A DNA stretch of 64,000 bases from Amaricoccus macauensis (lineage in GTDB: Bacteria > Pseudomonadota > Alphaproteobacteria > Rhodobacterales > Rhodobacteraceae), in the NCBI RefSeq assembly GCF_014201905.1, contig NZ_JACHFM010000003.1, positions 372,001 through 436,000 of the forward strand, read 5' to 3'. A program made the translations under genes and the position numbers. Positions 45,039 to 54,986 of the stretch are shown here, piece after piece. The notes below the pieces were generated by a model, which worked only from the letters and a program-made list of their open reading frames with translations, was not told the DNA's origin and did no database searches. Position 1 is the first letter of the stretch; every line of letters starts with the position of its first letter.

Positions 45039-45680
45039 TCACTCCGCCGCGAGGCTTCGGGAGTTGTAGGCGTAGGTTTCCCAGTCGGGGCGGTAGTCCT
45101 CGCTCGCCTGATTGCCCCAGACCGTCCAGCCCTTGCGGACGCCGCGGCCGAAGAGTTCGAGGTAGTCGCCGGGGCTGCATGCTTCGATCACGTCGTACTG
45201 CTCGTCGGGCTTGCGTGAGTGTTCGCGCTTGCGCGACGCAATGACGTTCACCTGCCGCCGGCCCGGGGCAAGGGTGCGGGCGTTGCGGCCGCGGGTGCCA
45301 AAGAGGATGATCTCGGTCACGTTGCGGAAGTAGAAGCCGACGCCGCGCCCGTCCGAGCCGCCGTCCTTCCGGATCTTGTGCCAGATCAGGTTCGACTTGT
45401 ACTGAAAGCCCCAGGAACGCATCACCTCGAGCCCTTCGGGCAGGAGCGCGTTCGGCACCCACAGATAGCAGTGCGCCGTTGCCTCGAGGTGTTCCTCGAC
45501 CGGCAGTGCGCAGATCTCCTCGGTGGTGAGCGTCGGATAGCGGCTGAGCCGCCGATGCTCCGGCGCGACCTTGCCGGTGCGGTTCACGAAACGCCACGGC
45601 GGATCAGCGAGCACGGTCGAGAACCGGCGCTGGCCGAGCGATTGTCTCAGGTCTTGGGCCGGATCATGCGTCATCATCAA
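45039..45680 (-). CDS. MT-A70-family adenine methyltransferase
   Basis: This 213-residue protein has the catalytic DPPW at 26-29 (TVLADPPWRF), placing it in the MT-A70 group that methylates N6 of adenine in DNA or RNA. Other marks are LFLWVPN-like CYLWVPNALLP, the SNLIWHKIRKDG segment and PDEQYDVIEACSPGDYLELFGR. No restriction endonuclease or phage genes lie nearby, so it is an orphan. It sits upstream of rpoZ across 192 bases. Its target and role are unknown. Confidence 0.88.
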   Translation of the reverse strand: MMMTHDPAQDLRQSLGQRRFSTVLADPPWRFVNRTGKVAPEHRRLSRYPTLTTEEICALPVEEHLEATAHCYLWVPNALLPEGLEVMRSWGFQYKSNLIWHKIRKDGGSDGRGVGFYFRNVTEIILFGTRGRNARTLAPGRRQVNVIASRKREHSRKPDEQYDVIEACSPGDYLELFGRGVRKGWTVWGNQASEDYRPDWETYAYNSRSLAAE

Positions 45681-45853
45681 TATCTAGCGAACCGCGCGAG
45701 AGTCGCACAATCGGAACATTGCAGGAACAGGCACGCGGCGCAAGCCCGTGTCCTGGTTAACGCGCTGGTCAGAGTACAAATGGGGCGGTCGCGGACGCCG
45801 CGGACTGGTCGACGGGGCGGGCAGAACAATGCTGCCCGCCGCCAGTGGATATC

Positions 45854-46858
45854 TCAGCCGAGGACGTCGGCGACCGCGACCTTGCGACCTTCGGCGACGG
45901 AGCGGACCGCGGCCTCGGCGAGCGCAAGCGCTCTCAGGCCGTCCTCGCCGGTCGGCGCGATGGCGGTGCCCTCGGTGACGCCGGCGACGAAGGTGGCGAT
46001 CTCGGCGGCGTAGGCGGAGGTGTAGCGGGTCATGAAGAAATCGAGGAGCGGCGGGCGGGTGAAGCCTGCGCCGTTCGCAATCTCGATGGAGACCTCGCGC
46101 TGGTTCTCGGCGGCGGCCATGCCTTTCGAGCCGAGGACCTCGATGCGCTGGTCATAGCCGTAGGTGGCGCGGCGCGAGTTGGTGATGACAGCCTGCCGGC
46201 CCGAGGGGGTCTCCAGCAGCACGTTCGCCGAGTCGAAGTCGCCCGCCCGGCCGATCTCGGAGTCGACGAGGTTCGAGGCGAACGCCGCGACGACGGTCGG
46301 CTCCTCGCCGAGGAGCCAGCGCGCCATGTCGAAGTCGTGGATCGTCATGTCGCGGAAGATGCCGCCCGAGCGCCTGATGTACTCGACCGGCGGGGCGCCG
46401 GGGTCGCGCGAGACGATCGTCACCATCTCGACATCGCCCACGGCGCCGTCGTCGATCGCCTTGCGAACGGCGCGGAAGTGCGGGTCGAAGCGGCGGTTGA
46501 AGCCAACCATCAGTTTCGCGCCGGTCTCCTCGACGACGGCGAGGCAGGCCTTCACCCGGGAGACGTCGAGGTCGATCGGCTTCTCGCAGAAGATCGCCTT
46601 CCCGGCGCGGGCGAAGCGCTCGATGAGATCCGCGTGAGTGTCGGTCGGCGTGCAGATCACCACGGCGTCGATGTCGTCGGCCGCCTCGATGGCGTCGATC
46701 GTGCGCACCGCGGCGGCGGCCTGGGCGGCGAGCGCCTCGGCGGCGGGCGCGAGGGCGTCGGCCACCGCGACGATGCGCGCGCCGGGGTTGGCGGCGATGG
46801 CGCCCGCATGCACCTTGCCGATGCGGCCGGCGCCGAGCACGGCGAAACGAACGGTCAT
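45854..46858 (-). CDS. iolG: Inositol 2-dehydrogenase-like oxidoreductase (Gfo/Idh/MocA)
   Basis: This 334-residue NAD-dependent enzyme fits inositol 2-dehydrogenase (IolG) and its relative MocA. The Rossmann motif is in VLGAGRIGKVH, the E92-K93-P94 motif is in FCEKPIDLD, and the catalytic region is GGIFRDMTIHDFDMARWLL. It would oxidise myo-inositol or a related inosamine to the keto form in the cytoplasm. It is the last gene of the minus-strand cluster, 34 bases after the SDR gene. Exact substrate is inferred from the neighbourhood. Confidence 0.85.
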   Translation of the reverse strand: MTVRFAVLGAGRIGKVHAGAIAANPGARIVAVADALAPAAEALAAQAAAAVRTIDAIEAADDIDAVVICTPTDTHADLIERFARAGKAIFCEKPIDLDVSRVKACLAVVEETGAKLMVGFNRRFDPHFRAVRKAIDDGAVGDVEMVTIVSRDPGAPPVEYIRRSGGIFRDMTIHDFDMARWLLGEEPTVVAAFASNLVDSEIGRAGDFDSANVLLETPSGRQAVITNSRRATYGYDQRIEVLGSKGMAAAENQREVSIEIANGAGFTRPPLLDFFMTRYTSAYAAEIATFVAGVTEGTAIAPTGEDGLRALALAEAAVRSVAEGRKVAVADVLG

Positions 46859-46892
46859 TGAAGTCCTCGCTCTTCGTTGGGGGGCGGCGCGG

Positions 46893-47687
46893 TCAGAAGT
46901 AGGCGCCGGCGATGTTCTGATCGTAGTCGATGATGGAGCCGGTCATCACCCCGGCCTCGGCGGCGAGGAGATAGCTCGCGAGACCCGCAACCTCGGCCGG
47001 CTTGATGAGCTGGCCGAAGGGCTGCTCGGCCTCGGCCTTCTCCAGCCAGTCGTCTCCGGCGCCGTGGTAGCGGCGCTGCGTCGCGTCCTCGCCCTCGGTG
47101 TCCATCCAGCCGCAGGCGATGCCGTTCACCCGGATCCGGTCGCGGCGGTGGGCCTGCGCGAGGTTCTTCGTGAGCGCCGCGAGGGCGGCCTTCGACGCGG
47201 TATAGGGCGCAAGGAACGGCTGGCCGCAGTGGATGACCATCGAGAGGATGTTGACGATCGCCGCGGGCTCCTGCCGGGCGATCGCCTGCTCGGCGAAGCG
47301 CTGCATGGTGAAGAACGGTCCGCGGGCGTTCGTGTCCATGAGCCGCGCCCAGATCTCGGGCGTGGTGTCGAGAAGCCCGCCCCGGTCGCAGGTGGCGGCG
47401 GCGTTCACCAGCGCGTTCGCGCCGCCCATCTCGGCGGCGGCCGTGTCGACGAGGCGGAAGCAGTCCTCGACCCGCGAGAGGTCGGCGCAGACGAAGCTCG
47501 CCTCCGCGCCGGCGGCGGCGAGGAGATCGACGGCGCCCGCCCCCTTCACCTCGTCGCGGCCGGCCAGCACCAGCCGGGGGCAGCCCTCGGCGACGAGCCG
47601 AAGCGCGATGGCAAGGCCGAGACCCTGGGCGCCACCGGTTATGATGGCGCGGGTCTCGACATGGCGGGAGGCGAGGGTGTCGAGCAT
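46893..47687 (-). CDS. Short-chain dehydrogenase/reductase
   Basis: This 264-residue SDR has the cofactor motif TGGAQGLG (17-24), Ser149 and the catalytic Y162-x3-K166 (YTASKAAL). DLSRVEDCF and the GWMDTEG segment fit classical SDRs acting on polyols. Its ATG overlaps the permease stop by one base (TGATG), so the genes are translationally coupled. In an inositol-type cluster it may oxidise another inositol isomer or a degradation intermediate, which is inference. Confidence 0.87.
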   Translation of the reverse strand: MLDTLASRHVETRAIITGGAQGLGLAIALRLVAEGCPRLVLAGRDEVKGAGAVDLLAAAGAEASFVCADLSRVEDCFRLVDTAAAEMGGANALVNAAATCDRGGLLDTTPEIWARLMDTNARGPFFTMQRFAEQAIARQEPAAIVNILSMVIHCGQPFLAPYTASKAALAALTKNLAQAHRRDRIRVNGIACGWMDTEGEDATQRRYHGAGDDWLEKAEAEQPFGQLIKPAEVAGLASYLLAAEAGVMTGSIIDYDQNIAGAYF

Positions 47688-48712
47688 CAGGTTGTCTTCG
47701 TCCTCTTCTTCTGGCGATAGACGTCGAGGACGACGGCGGCGACGATGATGATGCCCTTGACGATCTCCTGATAGTACGCGTCGATCCGAAGGAAGGTGAA
47801 GCCCGATGTCATCACGCCGAGGATGACCGTGCCGATCACCGTGCCGGTGATCCGGCCCTGGCCGCCGGCGAGGGAGGTGCCGCCGATCACGGTGGCGGCG
47901 ATGGCGTCGAGTTCGTACATCATCCCCATGCCGGCCTGCGCGGTCTGGGCACGGGCGGCGGTGACGATGCCGGCGAGACCTGCCAGCGTGCCGGCGATCG
48001 CATAGACCTTGATGAGATGCGCGCCGACGTTGATGCCCGAGACCCGCGCCGCCTGCGGATTGGCGCCGATGGCGTAGGTGAACTTGCCGTAGCGGGTGTA
48101 CCTGAGCGCGATGTGGAAGATGAGCGCGACGACGAGGAAGATCACCACCGGCCAGACGCCCGAGCCGATCTTGGCGAAGCTCTCCGAGGGGAACGAGATC
48201 GGCTGACCCTTGGTGTACCACTTCGCGACGCCGCGGGCCGTCACCATCATGCCGAGGGTGGCGATGAATGGTGGAATGCCGGTCTTTGCGATCAGTGTGC
48301 CGTTTATCAGTCCGGCGAGCAGCCCGACGCCGAGCCCGACCGCGATGGGGACGAGAACCGGCAGGTCGGTGAGCCCCGGATAGACCGCCCGTGCATAGGT
48401 CGAGACCTGGGCGAAACTCATGGCGATCATCGCGGTCATGGCGACGACAGAGCCGGAGGAGAGGTCGATACCGCCGGTGATGATGACCTGGGTGACGCCG
48501 ACGGCGATGATGCCGATGACGCTCACCTGCAGGATCATGATGGTGAGCCGCTGCGGATTGCCGAGGAAGCTCTGCCCCTGGAAGATCCAGCCGAGGATCT
48601 CGAAGACCGCCGCGACGGCGACGAGGATCGTCAGGATGCTGAACTCGGGCGGGACGCGCCGGGTCTTCCCGGGGGGCGAGATGCTCGAGGTATCGGTGTT
48701 CTGCGTTGACAT
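47687..48712 (-). CDS. Sugar/inositol ABC transporter permease
   Basis: This 341-residue membrane protein is the permease of a RbsC-type importer, with about nine helices. [20 protein letters not shown] and [19 protein letters not shown] are family features, and [18 protein letters not shown] is near the end. It would form a channel for the sugar or inositol brought by the binding proteins encoded upstream. Only one permease gene is present, so it is probably a homodimer. It follows the ATPase gene by 21 bases. Confidence 0.92.
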
Positions 48713-48733
48713 TTCCGTTCCCCCCTGCGGACC

Positions 48734-50272
48734 TCAGCGGGCCGCGAGTTCCATGATCTTCACCTGATTGGCTTCCGCCCGGTCGAGAATGCCGGTCTGG
48801 TGACCCTCGTGCATGACGAGGATGCGGTCGGACATGCCGAGCACCTCCGGCAGCTCCGACGAGATCATCACCACCGCGACGCCCTCGCCGGCGAGCTTCG
48901 AGATCAGCCGGTGGATCTCGGCCTTGGCGCCGACGTCGATGCCGCGGGTCGGCTCGTCGAGGATGAGGATCTTCGGCTTCGTCAGGAGCCAGCGGGCGAT
49001 CAGCACCTTCTGCTGGTTGCCGCCCGAGAGATTCTCGATCCGCTCGTAGAGTGTCGGCGTCTTGATGCGGAGCGCGGCCTTCATCTCCTCGCAGCGCTTG
49101 TTGACCCCGGCCTGGTCGACGAAGCCCATCTTGACGTGAGCCTCCTGCAGCACGGCCATCTGCATGTTCTCGAGCACCTCGAGGGACAGGAAGCAGCCGG
49201 TGTCCTTGCGGTCCTCGGTGAGGAACGCCATGCCGTGCCGCATGGCGTCGACCGGCGAGCGGATCGAGACTTCCTGACCGCGGATGCGGATCGTGCCGGA
49301 AGCGGCGGGCGTCACGCCGAAGAGCGCCTCTGCGACGTTCGAGCGGCCGGAGCCGACGAGGCCGGCGAAGCCGAGGATCTCGCCCGCGCGCACGGTGAAG
49401 TTCATCCCCTCGAACACGCCCGGCAGCGTCAGGTCGCGGACCTCGAGCACGGTGTCGCCGATCGGCACGGTTTCCTTCGGGAACATGTTGGTGATCTCGC
49501 GGCCGACCATCATGCGGATGATGTCGTCACGGGTCACGTCGGTTGACGCGTGGGTGCCGATGTACTTGCCGTCGCGGAACACCGAGAACTCGTCGGCGAT
49601 CTCGAAAAGCTCGTTCATCTTGTGGGTGATGTAGACGATGCCGATGCCCTGCTCGCGCAGGCCGCGGATGATGTCGAAGAGGTGCGCGACCTCGGTTTCG
49701 GTGAGCGCGCTGGTCGGCTCGTCCATGATGAGCACGTCGGAGTCGTAGCTCACCGCCTTGGCGATCTCGACCATCTGCCGGGCGGCGACAGTGAGGGTGC
49801 GCACCTCGACGTCGGGGTCGATGCGGATCTTCAGCCGGTCGAAGAGCTCCCGGGTCATCCGGCTCATCTTCGCGTGGTCGATGAGGCCGAAGGCACCCTT
49901 TGGTTCGCGGCGGATCCAGATGTTTTCCGCCACCGTCATGAACGGCATCAGGTTCAGTTCCTGATGGATCATGGCGATGCCCTGCTCCAGCGCATCGAGC
50001 GGGCCCTTGAGCGTGACCTCCTCGCCCCGCAGCCGCACGGTGCCGCGGTCCGGGGTGTAGATGCCGGCGATGATCTTCATCAGCGTCGACTTGCCCGCGC
50101 CGTTCTCACCCATCAGCGCGTGGACGGTGCCGGCGCGGACCTTGAGCTGCACGTCGTCGAGCGCGACCACACCGGGGAACTCCTTGCGGACTCCCTCCAC
50201 GGCCAGAACCTCCTCGCCCATCCGCTGCTTGTGGCGGTGGATCGCGGCGGCGAGCTTTGCATTGCCCTGCAT
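48734..50272 (-). CDS. Sugar/inositol ABC transporter ATPase (two ABC domains)
   Basis: This 512-residue protein is a RbsA/MglA-type double ATPase. The first domain has Walker A GENGAGKS, and the second has the degenerate GLVGSGRSN and signature LSGGNQQK, as usual in this family. [17 protein letters not shown] is the first Walker B. It powers sugar or cyclitol import with the permease encoded downstream. The ATG at 50272 has GGGAGGG upstream; a longer frame is not supported. Confidence 0.93.
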
Positions 50273-50340
50273 GTTCCCTCCCGTTACGTCGCGCCGGCGG
50301 ACGGGACGCACGGGCCGGCGAGGCCCGCGCGTCCGGGGTC

Positions 50341-51288
50341 TCACTTCGGCAGGTAGTCCTTGTAGTTGTCCTTCGTGACCAGTTCGAAGGGGACGTAGTT
50401 CTCGCGATCGACAGGCTCTCCCTTGGCAAGCGCCGCGATCGCGTCGATCGCGCCCTTGGCCTGGCCGGGCGCGCTCTGCAGCACGGTCACGTCCAGCTTG
50501 CCGTCGGCGATGGCCTGGAGCGCGTCCGGCGTTGCGTCGACGCCCGCGACGATGACCTGATCGAGCGGCACGCCCGCGGCTTCGAGCGCCTGATAGGCGC
50601 CGATCGCCATCTCGTCGTTGTTGGCGATCACCGCATCAGGCTTCACGCCGGCGGTCAGCCAGTTCGTCATGAGGTCGGCCGCCTGGGTGCGCTGCCACGT
50701 GGCGGTCTGCTCGTCGGTGATCTTGATGAAGAGGCAGTCCGCCTTCTCGAAGACCTCCCTGACCGCCTGGGTCCTGAGGCGGGTCGCCTGGTTCGAGAGA
50801 TCACCGAGCAGGATCACCGCCGTCGCCTCGGTCTTGCCGGCCTCCTTGAGCAGCCGGCAGACTTCCTGACCCTCGAGGGTGCCCGCCTCGGTCTCGTCCG
50901 AGCCGACGAAGACCTGGTTCGGCGGCAGCTGGTCGAGGTTCACCGGGCGGTTGTTGACGTAGACGACCGGGATGCCGGCGTTCTCGGCCGAGACGGTCAT
51001 CGGCACCGTCGAGTCGCTGTCCACGGGCGCGATGATGATGCCCTGCACGCCGGTCGCCGCGAAATTCTCGACCTGGCTGAGCTGGCGGCCGACATCGCGC
51101 TGGGCGTCCTCGAACTGCAGCGACATGCCCTCGTGCTGCGCGGCGTTCTCGGTCATCGCCTCGCGGAGCAGGGTGAGGAAATTGTCGTCGAAGTTTGAGA
51201 CGGCGACGCCGATCTCCTGCGCCGAGGCGGGCAATGCTGCCCCGGCAAGGAGGGCTGCGGCGGCAATGGCGCGGATCTGGGGGCCCAT
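50341..51288 (-). CDS. Periplasmic sugar/inositol-binding protein, copy 1
   Basis: This 315-residue protein is a RbsB/MocB-like binding protein with a signal peptide ([20 protein letters not shown], cleaved after ASA). The mature chain begins [17 protein letters not shown], and the hinge motif NNDEMAIGA is conserved. It is the third gene of a tandem paralog array and lies directly before the ATPase gene. It is closer in sequence to the first copy (52434-53381) than to the middle one. The shared DVGRQL and [12 protein letters not shown] segments show this. Confidence 0.9.
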
Positions 51289-51332
51289 CGGGGTTCCTTC
51301 CTGGTCTCGGGGACGCAGCCGGCTGGCGGCGC

Positions 51333-51372
51333 CAGTCCGTCCCGGCGGACGTCAATCGTCTCCGCCGGACTG
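51333..51372 (-). other. Hairpin between the second and third binding-protein genes
   Basis: CAGTCC...GGCGGA (51333-51349) can pair with TCCGCCGGACTG (51361-51372), leaving a small bulge and a loop of about 11 bases. It lies in the 151-base gap before copy 1. It could limit or stabilise transcription so that binding proteins exceed transporter subunits. Confidence 0.45.
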
Positions 51373-51439
51373 CGGGTGAGGGAGGGATGGTCTACCTGAC
51401 TCTCGGTTGAGGCCAGTACCAAAGTTGTCTTCCTCCGGG

Positions 51440-52372
51440 TTAGTTCGTCGTCTGGTACTCTTCCATGTTCTCGGGCGTGACGAGCTGGAACGGGATCCAG
51501 ATGTTCTGTTCGAGCGGCTTGCCCTTCGCCAGATCGACCGCGGTGGCGAGGCCGGCGGCACCCTGACCGTGCGCGTCCTGAAAGACCGTCACGTCGAGCT
51601 CCCCCCGGTCCATGGCCGCGAGGCCGTCGGGCGTCGCGTCGATGCCCGCCACGATGATCGTCGAGAAATCGGTGCCGACGCCCTGCATCGCCTGGATGGC
51701 GCCGATCGCCATCTCGTCGTTGTTGGCGATCACCGCGTCGAACTTCTGACCGGAACTCAGCCAGTTCGTCATGATGTCGACCGCCTCGAGCCGGTCCCAG
51801 TTCGCGACCTGGGTGTCGATGATGCTGATGCCGGCGCACTCGGGCTTTGCCAGCACGTCCTTGATGTCCTGGGTGCGGACACTGGCGGAGCTGTTGTTGA
51901 GCGGCCCCATGAGGACGAAGGCCTGGCCCTTGCCGCCGAGCAGCCGGCAGACCTCCTCGGTCTGCATGGTGCCTGACTGCTTCTCGTCCGAGCCGATGAA
52001 GGCCGCCGTCGCCGGCAGCGTCGCCGCGTCCGCGGGCGGGTGGTTGATGTAGACGATCGGAATGCCGGCGTCGGTCGCGGCCTTGGTCATCATCGGCGTG
52101 CCCTCGCCGTCGACGGCCACGACGATGATCGCGTCGACGCCGGAGGCGATGAAGTTCTGCACCTGATCGAGCTGGCGGGTGGGGTCGTTGACCGCGTCCT
52201 CGATCTGCAGCTTCACGCCGTCGCCAAGTTCCTTCGCCTTCGCCTCGATCCCGTCCCGGACCAGCGTCAGGAACGTGCTGTCAAAGCGCGCCACGGTGAC
52301 GCCGACCGTCTGGGCCTGTGCCGCCCCGGCGAAAGCGAGCGCGAGCGCGGTTGCGGACAGAAAGCCCTTCAT
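51440..52372 (-). CDS. Periplasmic sugar/inositol-binding protein, copy 2
   Basis: This 310-residue paralog has a signal peptide (MKGFLSATALALAFAGAAQA) and a mature start QTVGVTVARFDSTFLTLV. It keeps the hinge motif NNDEMAIGA and the EVCRLL cysteine, but differs from both neighbours at likely ligand-contact places: RFDSTFL instead of FDDNFL, DPTRQL instead of DVGKQL, and INHPPADAATLP. This suggests a different ligand or affinity. It sits in the middle of the tandem array. Confidence 0.9.
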   Translation of the reverse strand: MKGFLSATALALAFAGAAQAQTVGVTVARFDSTFLTLVRDGIEAKAKELGDGVKLQIEDAVNDPTRQLDQVQNFIASGVDAIIVVAVDGEGTPMMTKAATDAGIPIVYINHPPADAATLPATAAFIGSDEKQSGTMQTEEVCRLLGGKGQAFVLMGPLNNSSASVRTQDIKDVLAKPECAGISIIDTQVANWDRLEAVDIMTNWLSSGQKFDAVIANNDEMAIGAIQAMQGVGTDFSTIIVAGIDATPDGLAAMDRGELDVTVFQDAHGQGAAGLATAVDLAKGKPLEQNIWIPFQLVTPENMEEYQTTN

Positions 52373-52433
52373 GTCGTGTCTCCGGGATGCATCGTGGGGT
52401 CGTGATCCCGGCGGAGGGCCGCCGGGATCGGCG

Positions 52434-53381
52434 TCAGTTCGCCTTCTGGAACTCCGCGAGGTTCTCGGGGGTCACCAGCTGGAACGGGATGAAGACCTTG
52501 CGGTCCACCTTGTCGCCCTTGGCGAGCGAGAGGGCGGCGTCGAGCGCGCCCTTGCCCTGACCGGCGGCGTCCTGGAAGACGGTGACGTCGAGATCGCCCG
52601 CCGCCATCGCCGCGAGCGCATCCTGGGTGGCGTCGACGCCGCCGACGACCACGTCCTTCATGTCGACGCCGGCGCTCTTCATCGCCTGGATGGCGCCGAT
52701 TGCCATCTCGTCGTTGTTCGAGACGACCGCGTCGAACTTCACGCCCGCCGAGAGCCAGTTCGTCATCAGGTCGGTGCCCTGGGTGCGCGACCAGTTGGCG
52801 GTCTGCTCCTCGATGATCTTCATGAAGCTGCAGTCCGGCGTGGCGATGACGTCGTGAATGTCCTCGGTGCGCTGGCGGGCCGCCTGATTCGACAGCTCGC
52901 CCATCAGCACGAGGATGTTGGCGCCGTCCTTGTCCTTGCCGGCGGCCTTGAGCAGGCGGCAGACTTCCTGGGTCTCGAGGGTGCCCGATTCCTTCTCGTC
53001 GGACGCGACGAACGCCTGGGTCTCCGGCAGATCGTCGAGGTTCGCCGGCTGGCGGTTGACGAAGACGAGCGGGATCCCGGCGTCGTTCGCCGCCTGGCTC
53101 ATCGCGACGGTGGCGTCGGTATCGACCGGGTTGACGATGATCGCATCGACGCCGGAGGCGACGAAGTTCTGGATCTGGTTCAGCTGCTTGCCCACGTCAT
53201 TCTGGGCGTCCTCGACCTGCAGCGTCACGTCCGGCAGCGTCGCCGCGTAGTCCTGCAACCCGTTGCGCAGCACGGTCAGGAAGTTGTCGTCGAAGAGCGC
53301 CATCGACACGCCGACGTTGGCTGCCATCGCGCCCTGCGCCAATACGGTCGAGAGGGCGATGCCCGCGAGAAGTCTCCGCAT
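52434..53381 (-). CDS. Periplasmic sugar/inositol-binding protein, copy 3
   Basis: This 315-residue protein is the first-transcribed of three tandem paralogs. It has a signal peptide (MRRLLAGIALSTVLAQGAMA) and a mature start [27 protein letters not shown] and the paired cysteines (EVCRLL and ATPDCSF) are conserved in all three. The ATG at 53381 places the signal peptide at the start; an upstream frame is not supported. The promoter region just upstream is AT-rich and carries a GGAA-N6-TTCT site. Confidence 0.91.
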   Translation of the reverse strand: MRRLLAGIALSTVLAQGAMAANVGVSMALFDDNFLTVLRNGLQDYAATLPDVTLQVEDAQNDVGKQLNQIQNFVASGVDAIIVNPVDTDATVAMSQAANDAGIPLVFVNRQPANLDDLPETQAFVASDEKESGTLETQEVCRLLKAAGKDKDGANILVLMGELSNQAARQRTEDIHDVIATPDCSFMKIIEEQTANWSRTQGTDLMTNWLSAGVKFDAVVSNNDEMAIGAIQAMKSAGVDMKDVVVGGVDATQDALAAMAAGDLDVTVFQDAAGQGKGALDAALSLAKGDKVDRKVFIPFQLVTPENLAEFQKAN

Positions 53382-53510
53382 GATTGGTCTTTCCCTCCAC
53401 TGCGGGCGCCCGGGCGCGCCCTTGTGAACTCCCGGAGACGCCGGGTCTCCCGCCCGGTCGCCGGTCCGCGGGCGCGACATGGAATGCCCAGCCGTGCCCT
53501 GCGGCATTTC

Positions 53511-53524
53511 AGAATATTTATTCC
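53511..53524 (-). promoter_or_regulatory. IolR-like site upstream of the binding-protein operon
   Basis: Read on the minus strand, GGAA-TAAATA-TTCT lies 130 bases before the start of copy 3, in the most AT-rich stretch of the region. The rhizobial inositol repressor IolR is reported to bind GGAA-N6-TTCC, so this is one mismatch away. No rpiR-type gene is in the window. Confidence 0.4.
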
Positions 53525-53579
53525 ATTTTATGTCGCGACGTCAAGCGCTCATTCCGGCGCCGCGTCGGAGCGATCGGGT

Positions 53580-54395
53580 TCAGGCCGTGGACGTGCTCGT
53601 GCTTTCGCGGACGAGCGCCATGCTGGCCGCGAGGGCTGCTTTCGGGTCGTCGAGGGCCTGAATTTCCACAGCGAACGGCTCAAAGGAGAGGTATCCGTCA
53701 AAGCCCGCCTGTCGAAGCGACCGGATCTGCACGACGTTTCCCAGCCGGTCCGCGGCGGTGACGAGCACGCGGTCGGGGTCGCGCATGTCGGCCACCGCAA
53801 GGTCCGGGTTATCAACGCCCGAGATGTGCACGAGGGCGGTGAGCTCCGGGAAGAGTTCGGATTCGCCGGCGAGGTGGTGGTGGAACGTGTCGTGGACCAG
53901 ACCGAACGTGTCGGCCCCGCCGATGGCGCGGATCGCTGCCGCCGCCTCGGATTTCAGGCGGAGCGAGCAGCTCTCGAAACCGAGCGGCTCCACGAGACCG
54001 CGCAGGCCCCGACCCTTGAGAATCGCCCTCAGCCCCTCCAGCGCCGCTTGCAGGCGGTCGGGCCGGCTGCCGTCGTTGGTGGGCACGAGAACCAGCGCCT
54101 CGGCACCGCAGGCGGCGGCATAGTCGGCGAGGGCCACGGCCTGGTTCGCCCGCTCGGCGCGCCAGTCGTCGAAGCGCTGCAGGGCGTTGATCGAGAGAAT
54201 CCGCACGCCCGCGTCGCTGGCGAGGCCGCGGATGCGCGCGGGCGGCGTGCCGTCGAGGATCGCGTTGCCCTCAAGGTCGTTGCGGATCTCGACCGCGTCC
54301 AGTCCGAGCGCGCCCGCGAGGGCGAAGAACGCGTCCGGCGCGAGGCGCGGGGCGGTCATGTGGTTGAGCGCGAAACGGGGTGGGGTCGACGGCAC
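53580..54395 (-). CDS. Sugar phosphate isomerase/epimerase, IolI/MocC-like TIM barrel
   Basis: This 271-residue protein belongs to the xylose-isomerase-like TIM-barrel family and resembles inosose isomerase (IolI). Features are AGALGLDAVEIRNDL, ALVLVPTNDGSRP and the metal-site-like LVHDTFHHHLAG. It probably acts on a keto-inositol. The start is taken as GTG at 54395 because GGAGGA precedes it with good spacing and homology begins there. It lies 198 bases upstream of the binding-protein array on the same strand. Confidence 0.8.
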   Translation of the reverse strand: MPSTPPRFALNHMTAPRLAPDAFFALAGALGLDAVEIRNDLEGNAILDGTPPARIRGLASDAGVRILSINALQRFDDWRAERANQAVALADYAAACGAEALVLVPTNDGSRPDRLQAALEGLRAILKGRGLRGLVEPLGFESCSLRLKSEAAAAIRAIGGADTFGLVHDTFHHHLAGESELFPELTALVHISGVDNPDLAVADMRDPDRVLVTAADRLGNVVQIRSLRQAGFDGYLSFEPFAVEIQALDDPKAALAASMALVRESTSTSTA

Positions 54396-54573
54396 GGCGT
54401 CCTCCTCCTGATCTGCACAACGAGCGGGTGCGATTCTCACCGAGCGGACTCCGCCGCCCTTTCCCGAAAGATCACCACGTCGCAGCGCGGTTTCAAAGTC
54501 TCGGATGCCACGTGGAGAGCGGCCGGGCGCGGCGAGAGGTGACGTCGAGTGGCAGGGACCGTCCTGATGTGTT

Positions 54574-54627
54574 CTGATAGGTTCTGTCATGCCGCAGATT
54601 GAGCGGTCGCGAGTCCGCCCCTATCAG
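54574..54627. promoter_or_regulatory. Inverted repeat in the divergent iolI-mocE gap
   Basis: CTGATAGG (54574-54581) is the reverse complement of CCTATCAG (54620-54627), spaced by 38 bases. It lies 51-104 bases before the Rieske ferredoxin start in a 282-base divergent gap. It might bind a looping or dimeric repressor, but the arms are short. Confidence 0.3.
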
Positions 54628-54677
54628 GTCGGCAGGCACCGCGCGCCGCCGCGGCACTCGAGAGGGGAACTACCGCA

Positions 54678-54986
54678 ATGGCCTGGATCCGCGCCTGCTC
54701 CGCCGACGACATCGACGAGGAAGACGTCGCACGCTTTGATCACGACGGACGCACCTTCGCGATCTACCACAGCCCCGACGGCGAGTTCTTCGCCACCGAC
54801 GGGCTTTGCACCCACGAGCAGATCCACCTCGCCGACGGTCTCGTTCTGGACAACATCATCGAGTGCCCGAAGCACAACGGCCGCTTCGACTACCGCACCG
54901 GCGAGGCGAAGGGCGCCCCGGTCTGCGTCGATCTGAACACCTACAAGGTGAAGGTCGAGGACGGCGAGGTTTTCGTCGATGTCTGA
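54678..54986 (+). CDS. Rieske 2Fe-2S ferredoxin, MocE-like
   Basis: This 102-residue soluble ferredoxin has the Rieske ligands C44-x-H46 (LCTHEQIHL) and C63-xx-H66 (ECPKHNGRFD). It resembles MocE, the ferredoxin of rhizopine degradation, and other oxygenase-linked Rieske ferredoxins. It probably passes electrons from the next gene's reductase to an oxygenase. No oxygenase (MocD-type) gene is next to it. Its end overlaps the reductase gene by eight bases. Confidence 0.88.
   Translation: MAWIRACSADDIDEEDVARFDHDGRTFAIYHSPDGEFFATDGLCTHEQIHLADGLVLDNIIECPKHNGRFDYRTGEAKGAPVCVDLNTYKVKVEDGEVFVDV

Follow-up and report, generated by a model that had tools for sequence, protein, structure and literature searches.

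Three tandem binding-protein genes beside one transporter in an inositol-importer locus of Amaricoccus macauensis: a candidate set of exchangeable receptors

Why would an operon that encodes a single ATP-binding cassette (ABC) transporter carry three genes for its binding protein? The question is raised by a locus of Amaricoccus macauensis within a stretch of 64,000 nucleotides (contig NZ_JACHFM010000003.1, positions 372,001 to 436,000; the whole stretch is called the window, and coordinates refer to it), where a first-pass annotation made from the sequence alone had placed three tandem paralogous binding proteins at 50341-53381. They are there as described: S1, S2 and S3 are co-directional, intact open reading frames, each with a Sec-type signal (judged by eye) and a Shine-Dalgarno-like stretch, and all three products match PF13407 (Peripla_BP_4). 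From 54395 to 45854 on the minus strand, the genes run in the order TIM-barrel protein, S1, S2, S3, double-domain ATPase, permease, short-chain dehydrogenase/reductase (SDR) and Gfo/Idh dehydrogenase. The answer that we favor, with modest confidence, is that this is one inositol importer with three exchangeable, non-redundant binding proteins, by which the cell would import several cyclitols. Under this proposal the importer is probably inducible, the genes being cotranscribed under an IolR-like repressor; S1 would catch myo-inositol and hand it to the sole permease-ATPase pair, and S2 and S3 would bind related cyclitols, probably isomers other than myo-inositol or simple derivatives, with the same permease as their docking partner. 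One pump would then serve several substrates.

The kind of transporter is indicated by the adjoining genes for a Peripla_BP_4 protein, a double-domain ATPase and a BPD_transp_2 permease, the composition of a CUT2 ABC importer. Its components are close relatives of characterized IbpA, IatA and IatP proteins and are linked to an inositol catabolic gene, that of the Gfo/Idh dehydrogenase IolG, which is the sole gene genome-wide above the TIGR04380 cut-off. Judged by sequence, the locus is an IbpA-IatA-IatP-type inositol importer, predicted to bind and transport myo-inositol. The ATPase shares 77% identity with the product of the ATPase gene behind SMb20712 of S. meliloti (L114), the permease is 70-82% identical to those of rhizobial loci, and S1 itself is 74.4% identical to SMb20712, encoded on pSymB, over the mature region (69% by BLAST). 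According to the accessible parts of two reports, a Förster resonance energy transfer (FRET) construct based on SMb20712 has a Kd for myo-inositol of 4.7e-7 M (PMC3454389), and a transposon insertion in SMb20712 abolishes growth on myo-inositol, with polarity on downstream genes possible (PMC2597717).

The three copies stand well apart from one another, with mature-region identities of 56.8% (S1-S2), 58.1% (S1-S3) and 47.7% (S2-S3). S2 is 66.3% identical to SMb20072. A clade of five rows (support 100/97) unites these two with the counterparts of SMb20072 in S. medicae and Pararhizobium and, from Aureimonas, with the second of the two binding proteins in an iol operon. These five belong to a 13-row clade (100/99) that also includes the second binding proteins from clusters of Paracoccus, Thioclava, Rhizobium and Agrobacterium; this position and the residue pair H110-P111 place S2 in the SMb20072-type accessory group. 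S3 has as its sister (100/99; 69.8% mature identity) the protein L207_1065 of another species of the genus (G009), where the gene adjoins an S1 orthologue. The tree omits two long-branch rows (L184_3034, L213_8963), and its root is not trusted, the outgroup being very distant; the S2 clade and the S3 pair were unchanged in a separate tree with faulty outgroup rows. Because S2 groups outside S1 and S3, with SMb20072 and the Aureimonas protein, and every pair is less than 59% identical, a recent tandem triplication is ruled out. By these comparisons S1 is of the IbpA type and the array is an assembly of old lineages. The first-pass annotation had seen the outer two copies as alike and the middle one as different: the separate, supported clade of S2 agrees with this, but identity hardly sets S3 closer to S1 (58.1 versus 56.8%), and the predicted pocket of S3 differs from that of S1 at two positions.

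That annotation had also pointed to a shared hinge motif, NNDEMAIGA, and paired cysteines. Both are present; however, among 210 sequences chosen for their similarity to S1-S3, 210/210 rows have the two cysteines and 185/210 the motif, and they are therefore family traits, which rules them out as a mark of special kinship. Moreover, we take the motif to be a ligand-contact segment (RBP N190 / GBP N211), not a hinge. By sequence, 4yo7 is the best solved match for all three proteins; this structure presumably contains myo-inositol and is also the best structural match of the S2 model (mean pLDDT 87.3; Z 33.2, rmsd 3.9, 287 aligned). The MocB-family model NF052284 scores 34.7-39.1 bits on S1-S3, below its cut-off of 420.

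Pocket residues and predicted ligands

Do the three proteins differ where a ligand would be held? Twelve pocket-equivalent positions were mapped by alignment (to 5kws) without a ligand-bound structure, starting from what we take to be the contact lists of GBP and RBP. From 18 displayed positions we kept the 11 GBP-contact equivalents and position 84, presumably the equivalent of RBP N64, and dropped neighbors and the RBP-only positions 28, 35, 111, 166, 271 and 273. Each copy is identical at all 12 to a named orthologue (S1 to SMb20712, S2 to SMb20072, S3 to its G009 sister), whereas agreement among the copies is limited to 8 positions (S1-S2), 10 (S1-S3) and 8 (S2-S3). N109, R171, W197, N222, D250 and Q270 are common to all three; positions 32, 84 and 110 read D/N/R in S1, S/V/H in S2 and D/A/N in S3, the latter thus departing from S1 by N84 to A and R110 to N.

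The D32/N84/R110 trio is retained in 142 of 144 single-binding-protein loci, a count that sets aside the rows of 16 two-binding-protein loci and of 12 loci without an adjacent transporter or otherwise excluded, and in 30/30 of those at 60-65% identity to S1. The accessory clade has H110-P111 in 13/13 rows; position 32 is S in the five S2-type rows and N in the remaining eight. The H110-P111 pair, where IbpA-type proteins have R110, is found regardless of whether the protein stands alone, follows IbpA or follows the permease, and may mark a different ligand. Where S2 has left a residue fixed in S1-type proteins, SMb20072 has the same new residue at 4/4 pocket positions, versus 14/29 over all changed positions; both pocket changes of S3 are shared with its sister, versus 17/29 over all (the counts of shared pocket changes are small). 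New ligands are argued from the sharing of these changes with orthologues and from the retention of these residues in single-copy loci, and the three binding proteins are probably not redundant. That S3 has lost its function and is decaying as a duplicate seems highly improbable. Among 116 S1-type rows, 129 positions are conserved to at least 95%, and S3 has indeed altered 29 of them, but its reading frame is intact, with signal and ribosome-binding site, and its orthologue in the second species, 69.8% identical overall, agrees with it at all 12 pocket positions.

A number of points weigh against the reading of S1-S3 as receptors for different cyclitols. S2 has changed 4/12 pocket positions versus 25/117 other conserved ones, and S3 2/12 versus 27/117, so that among the 129 conserved positions change is not enriched in the pocket of either; since the pocket has not changed faster than the rest, our confidence was lowered a little, from fairly good to modest. 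The trio was chosen after the differences were known, and the contacts behind it were mapped by alignment as described above. Controls at the divergence of S1-S2 and S1-S3 (57-58%) are few, and in the 55-60% identity bin the trio is kept in 1/3. Position 84 is V, I or T inside the S2 clade, and S2 and its Aureimonas counterpart agree at 10/12 pocket positions. The available portions of PMC2848018 and PMC12239276 have SMb20072 annotated as myo-inositol-induced, apparently as its own transcription unit, and such induction fits binding of myo-inositol too. The candidate operator upstream of S1 has a mismatch, SMb20072 has nothing better than a site with one mismatch, and no site was found at the binding-protein genes of Aureimonas. 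Finally, G009 has orthologues of S1 and S3 and, in its draft assembly, no close permease orthologue (best 46%).

Some of these points suit an explanation by dosage or affinity tiers, in which all three proteins bind myo-inositol, with differing affinity or in higher total amount, and the cell gains more capture, not a wider range. The six pocket residues common to all copies, the annotated induction of SMb20072 by myo-inositol and the lack of pocket enrichment are consistent with it; the changed residues common to S2 and SMb20072 and to S3 and its sister, and the trio kept in all single-copy loci at 60-65% identity, argue against it. We consider this explanation unlikely, though a serious competitor. 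The earlier proposal of one importer for several cyclitols is thus partly sustained: pocket residues are identical between each copy and its named orthologue and differ between copies, and single-copy loci nearly always keep the trio; on the other hand, pocket change is not enriched, and the ligands of S2 and S3 are predictions. A wider form of the three-receptor reading is more tentative: alphaproteobacterial inositol importers would draw on an exchangeable set of binding proteins, their ligand given mainly by the 32/84/110 signature (D-N-R for myo-inositol, S-x-H and N-N-H for the accessory clade, D-A-N for this genus), and the present operon would pack three types, so that one importer reads three cyclitols. 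We regard this as possible rather than probable.

Transporter partners

Which permease do S2 and S3 serve? The first-pass annotation had one permease and one ATPase serving all three copies. The operon does hold one of each, but the genome has further permeases, with 29 matches to the permease in all; the others are at most 44% identical. Because no other match exceeds this value, the adjoining permease appears from sequence to be the only clear partner for S1-S3. An alternative is that only S1 feeds it and that S2 and S3 work with other transporters or in sensing, being placed here for co-regulation. The many other CUT2 permeases would allow this, as would SMb20072-type and other relatives that have no ATPase or permease in the stretches viewed; yet S2 and S3 sit between S1 and the ATPase gene, the Aureimonas relative of S2 also directly precedes an ATPase and a permease, and none of the other permeases is close. 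This alternative seems to us rather improbable.

Two further close binding proteins are encoded in the genome, S4 (L081 6675-7613) and S5 (L082 6371-7447), both with leucine in place of R110. The 14-kb stretches around them gave no match to a CUT2 ATPase or permease, and we do not claim five binding proteins on one pump. S4 is preceded by LacI-type and fatty-acid-hydroxylase genes and followed by one for an amino-acid permease; the neighbors of S5 encode a xylulokinase and an aldehyde dehydrogenase, and permease as well as binding-protein matches lie ~7-10 kb off (C3:189584, C3:192317). In G009 (loci L207-L213), there are eight close binding proteins, and three of their contigs end less than 300 bases from the gene.

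Other inositol genes lie elsewhere in the A. macauensis genome. There are two IolD genes above the cut-off, one of them beside an IolC above the cut-off; the other lies several kilobases away from an IolG-like gene, whose score is 250.2 bits with a D-chiro-inositol model (below the cut-off of 540) versus 177.5 with TIGR04380. One of the two iolD regions (L220, L221) has a fused IolC kinase/aldolase, and the other has an SDR of the type found in the window (same family model) and two Gfo/Idh genes. The bacterium may process two or more inositol isomers, in keeping with the reading of one pump for several cyclitols.

Regulation and neighboring genes

The features of the locus are collected in Table 1. 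The start of the TIM-barrel gene is a GTG, picked from its upstream AGGAGGAGG; a TIM-barrel gene precedes the binding-protein gene in many relatives.

Table 1. Features of the inositol-importer locus, with coordinates in the window
Feature	Coordinates	Strand	Basis or remark
Xylose-isomerase-like TIM-barrel protein (inosose-isomerase-like by position)	53580..54395	-	PF01261; upstream gene
IolR-type operator candidate	53511..53524	-	129 nt upstream of S1 start; one mismatch from GGAA-N6-TTCC
S1, IbpA-type binding protein	52434..53381	-	PF13407; comparison with SMb20712
GC-rich hairpin after S1, no T run	52404..52429	-	Fold of the S1-S2 gap
S2, SMb20072-type binding protein	51440..52372	-	Clade with SMb20072; pocket match
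S3, binding protein of a lineage known here solely from its own genus	50341..51288	-	Sister of L207_1065 (G009)
GC-rich hairpin between S3 and ATPase	50304..50334	-	Fold of the S3-ATPase gap
CUT2 double-domain ATPase (IatA-like)	48734..50272	-	PF00005 in two stretches
CUT2 permease (IatP-like)	47687..48712	-	PF02653 (BPD_transp_2)
SDR oxidoreductase	46893..47687	-	NF004847, 343.1 bits (cut-off 240); start overlaps permease stop
IolG, inositol 2-dehydrogenase	45854..46858	-	TIGR04380, 419.7 bits (cut-off 355)

The accessible part of PMC2597717 links the palindrome GGAA-N6-TTCC to inositol genes. The candidate upstream of S1, GGAATAAATATTCT, shares 12/14 letters with GGAATACATATTCC, an exact site 151 nt upstream of SMb20712. 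Taken alone it could be due to chance, because sites with at most one mismatch occur at ~0.06 per 200 nt of the window and ~1.1 kb of upstream regions was scanned; no such site was found in the other gaps tested. The exact motif is near 43/95 binding-protein genes of the 80 loci kept from a pattern scan (see below), with 112 sites in all 1,284,609 bases; its one exact occurrence in the window is away from the operon and at chance level.

Hairpins in the gaps were considered as regulators and rejected: the S1-S2 gap (64 nt) folds better than most shuffles (-25.0 kcal/mol, z -2.48, 2/200 as good), but the S2-S3 gap (z -1.65) and the S3-ATPase gap (71 nt; -38.6 kcal/mol, z -1.34, 24/200 as good, not beyond composition) do not. 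A sigma-70 scan of 45800-54800, which covers one promoter type, gave no internal promoters.

An MT-A70 family methyltransferase gene (45039-45680) lies downstream of the IolG gene on the same strand. The double-domain ATPase gene precedes the permease gene (47687-50272) as in rhizobial and most Paracoccus loci; in most relatives within the family (among L118-L206) the permease leads and is followed by an ATPase match of ~30-36% identity. Downstream, SDR and IolG come in the order usual for the family. The locus looks like a hybrid.

Distribution, known systems and meaning

How common is such an array? A pattern scan of species genomes gave at least 596 matches, of which 575 were confirmed and 80 loci kept; among the matches listed, none of the 80 has three binding proteins. 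One binding protein beside the transporter is the rule (61 loci); in 10 loci two surround a single transporter, in 3 one of the two is near a transporter, 2 have two adjacent copies with the transporter not in view, and 4, some of them at the end of a contig, have one with the transporter not in view. L111 and L115 denote a single gene. On the Aureimonas sp. AU20 plasmid pAU20a, the order is TIM-barrel gene, two binding proteins, ATPase and permease, within an iol cluster; on plasmids of Paracoccus yeei and Thioclava, it is binding protein, ATPase, permease and binding protein. In L016 and L020 (Agrobacterium), S1-type and accessory-type binding proteins are adjacent, and no ATPase or permease was matched in the stretch viewed.

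The taxonomic samples overlap and may share species, and the family, order and class searches took the best five candidates or fewer per genome. Matches came from 12/121 genomes of relatives, 84/394 of the family (the A. macauensis genome included), 78/390 of the order and 6/385 of the class. In 89 stretches from the other 83 family genomes, 83 have one binding protein beside the transporter, 5 have one without it and 1 has two. By coordinates, three in tandem occur in the order sample only in the A. macauensis genome, and five other genomes have two within 3 kb. Among the matches listed, no sample contains a second genome with three in tandem. The search among relatives for the array therefore returned two-member operons but no second triple array.

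The component families are those of the IbpA-IatA-IatP systems of Caulobacter (CC0859-0861) and S. meliloti (SMb20712-20714), and the SMb20712 locus also resembles this one in having a TIM-barrel gene in front, and its upstream operator site is similar to the candidate here; however, those systems have one binding protein and this locus has three. The clusters of Aureimonas sp. AU20, P. yeei and Thioclava likewise have more than one binding protein for one ATPase and one permease, the second in, or sister to, the S2 clade; still, they have two, and in Paracoccus and Thioclava the second copy follows the permease. S2 resembles SMb20072 in clade and in all 12 pocket positions, but the latter apparently forms an independent transcription unit (PMC2848018, in its available part), whereas S2 lies inside the transporter operon.

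Several binding proteins on one ABC importer are familiar from LivJ/LivK with LivHMGF and from HisJ/LAO with HisQMP, which are amino-acid importers of other families, unlike the present one. For inositol, the accessible part of PMC10107442 describes a hybrid uptake system of the rhizopine-binding MocB and IntBC of the R. leguminosarum inositol ABC transporter. As proposed for S2 and S3, another binding protein there feeds an inositol permease-ATPase pair; unlike our locus, that system is engineered from genes of two strains, and S1-S3 score below the MocB cut-off. The first-pass annotation knew of no such arrangement for inositol systems. This does not hold, given MocB with IntBC, SMb20072 as a second IbpA-like protein and the two-binding-protein operons within or next to inositol genes in Aureimonas, Paracoccus and Thioclava, although among the papers listed in literature searches on multiple binding proteins in inositol systems none was on a triple tandem array.

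Because sharing of an inositol importer between binding proteins is already published (MocB with IntBC, PMC10107442, as far as the available part shows), the new part is the packaging of three differing binding proteins in one operon, and this precedent of binding-protein swapping limits the surprise. If the three-receptor reading is true, it would help to assign ligands to the accessory clade, including SMb20072, for which the partly accessible literature gave no ligand, and it would supply parts for cyclitol biosensors. One pump would then have three naturally occurring pocket variants, of use in learning how CUT2 binding proteins discriminate between inositol isomers.

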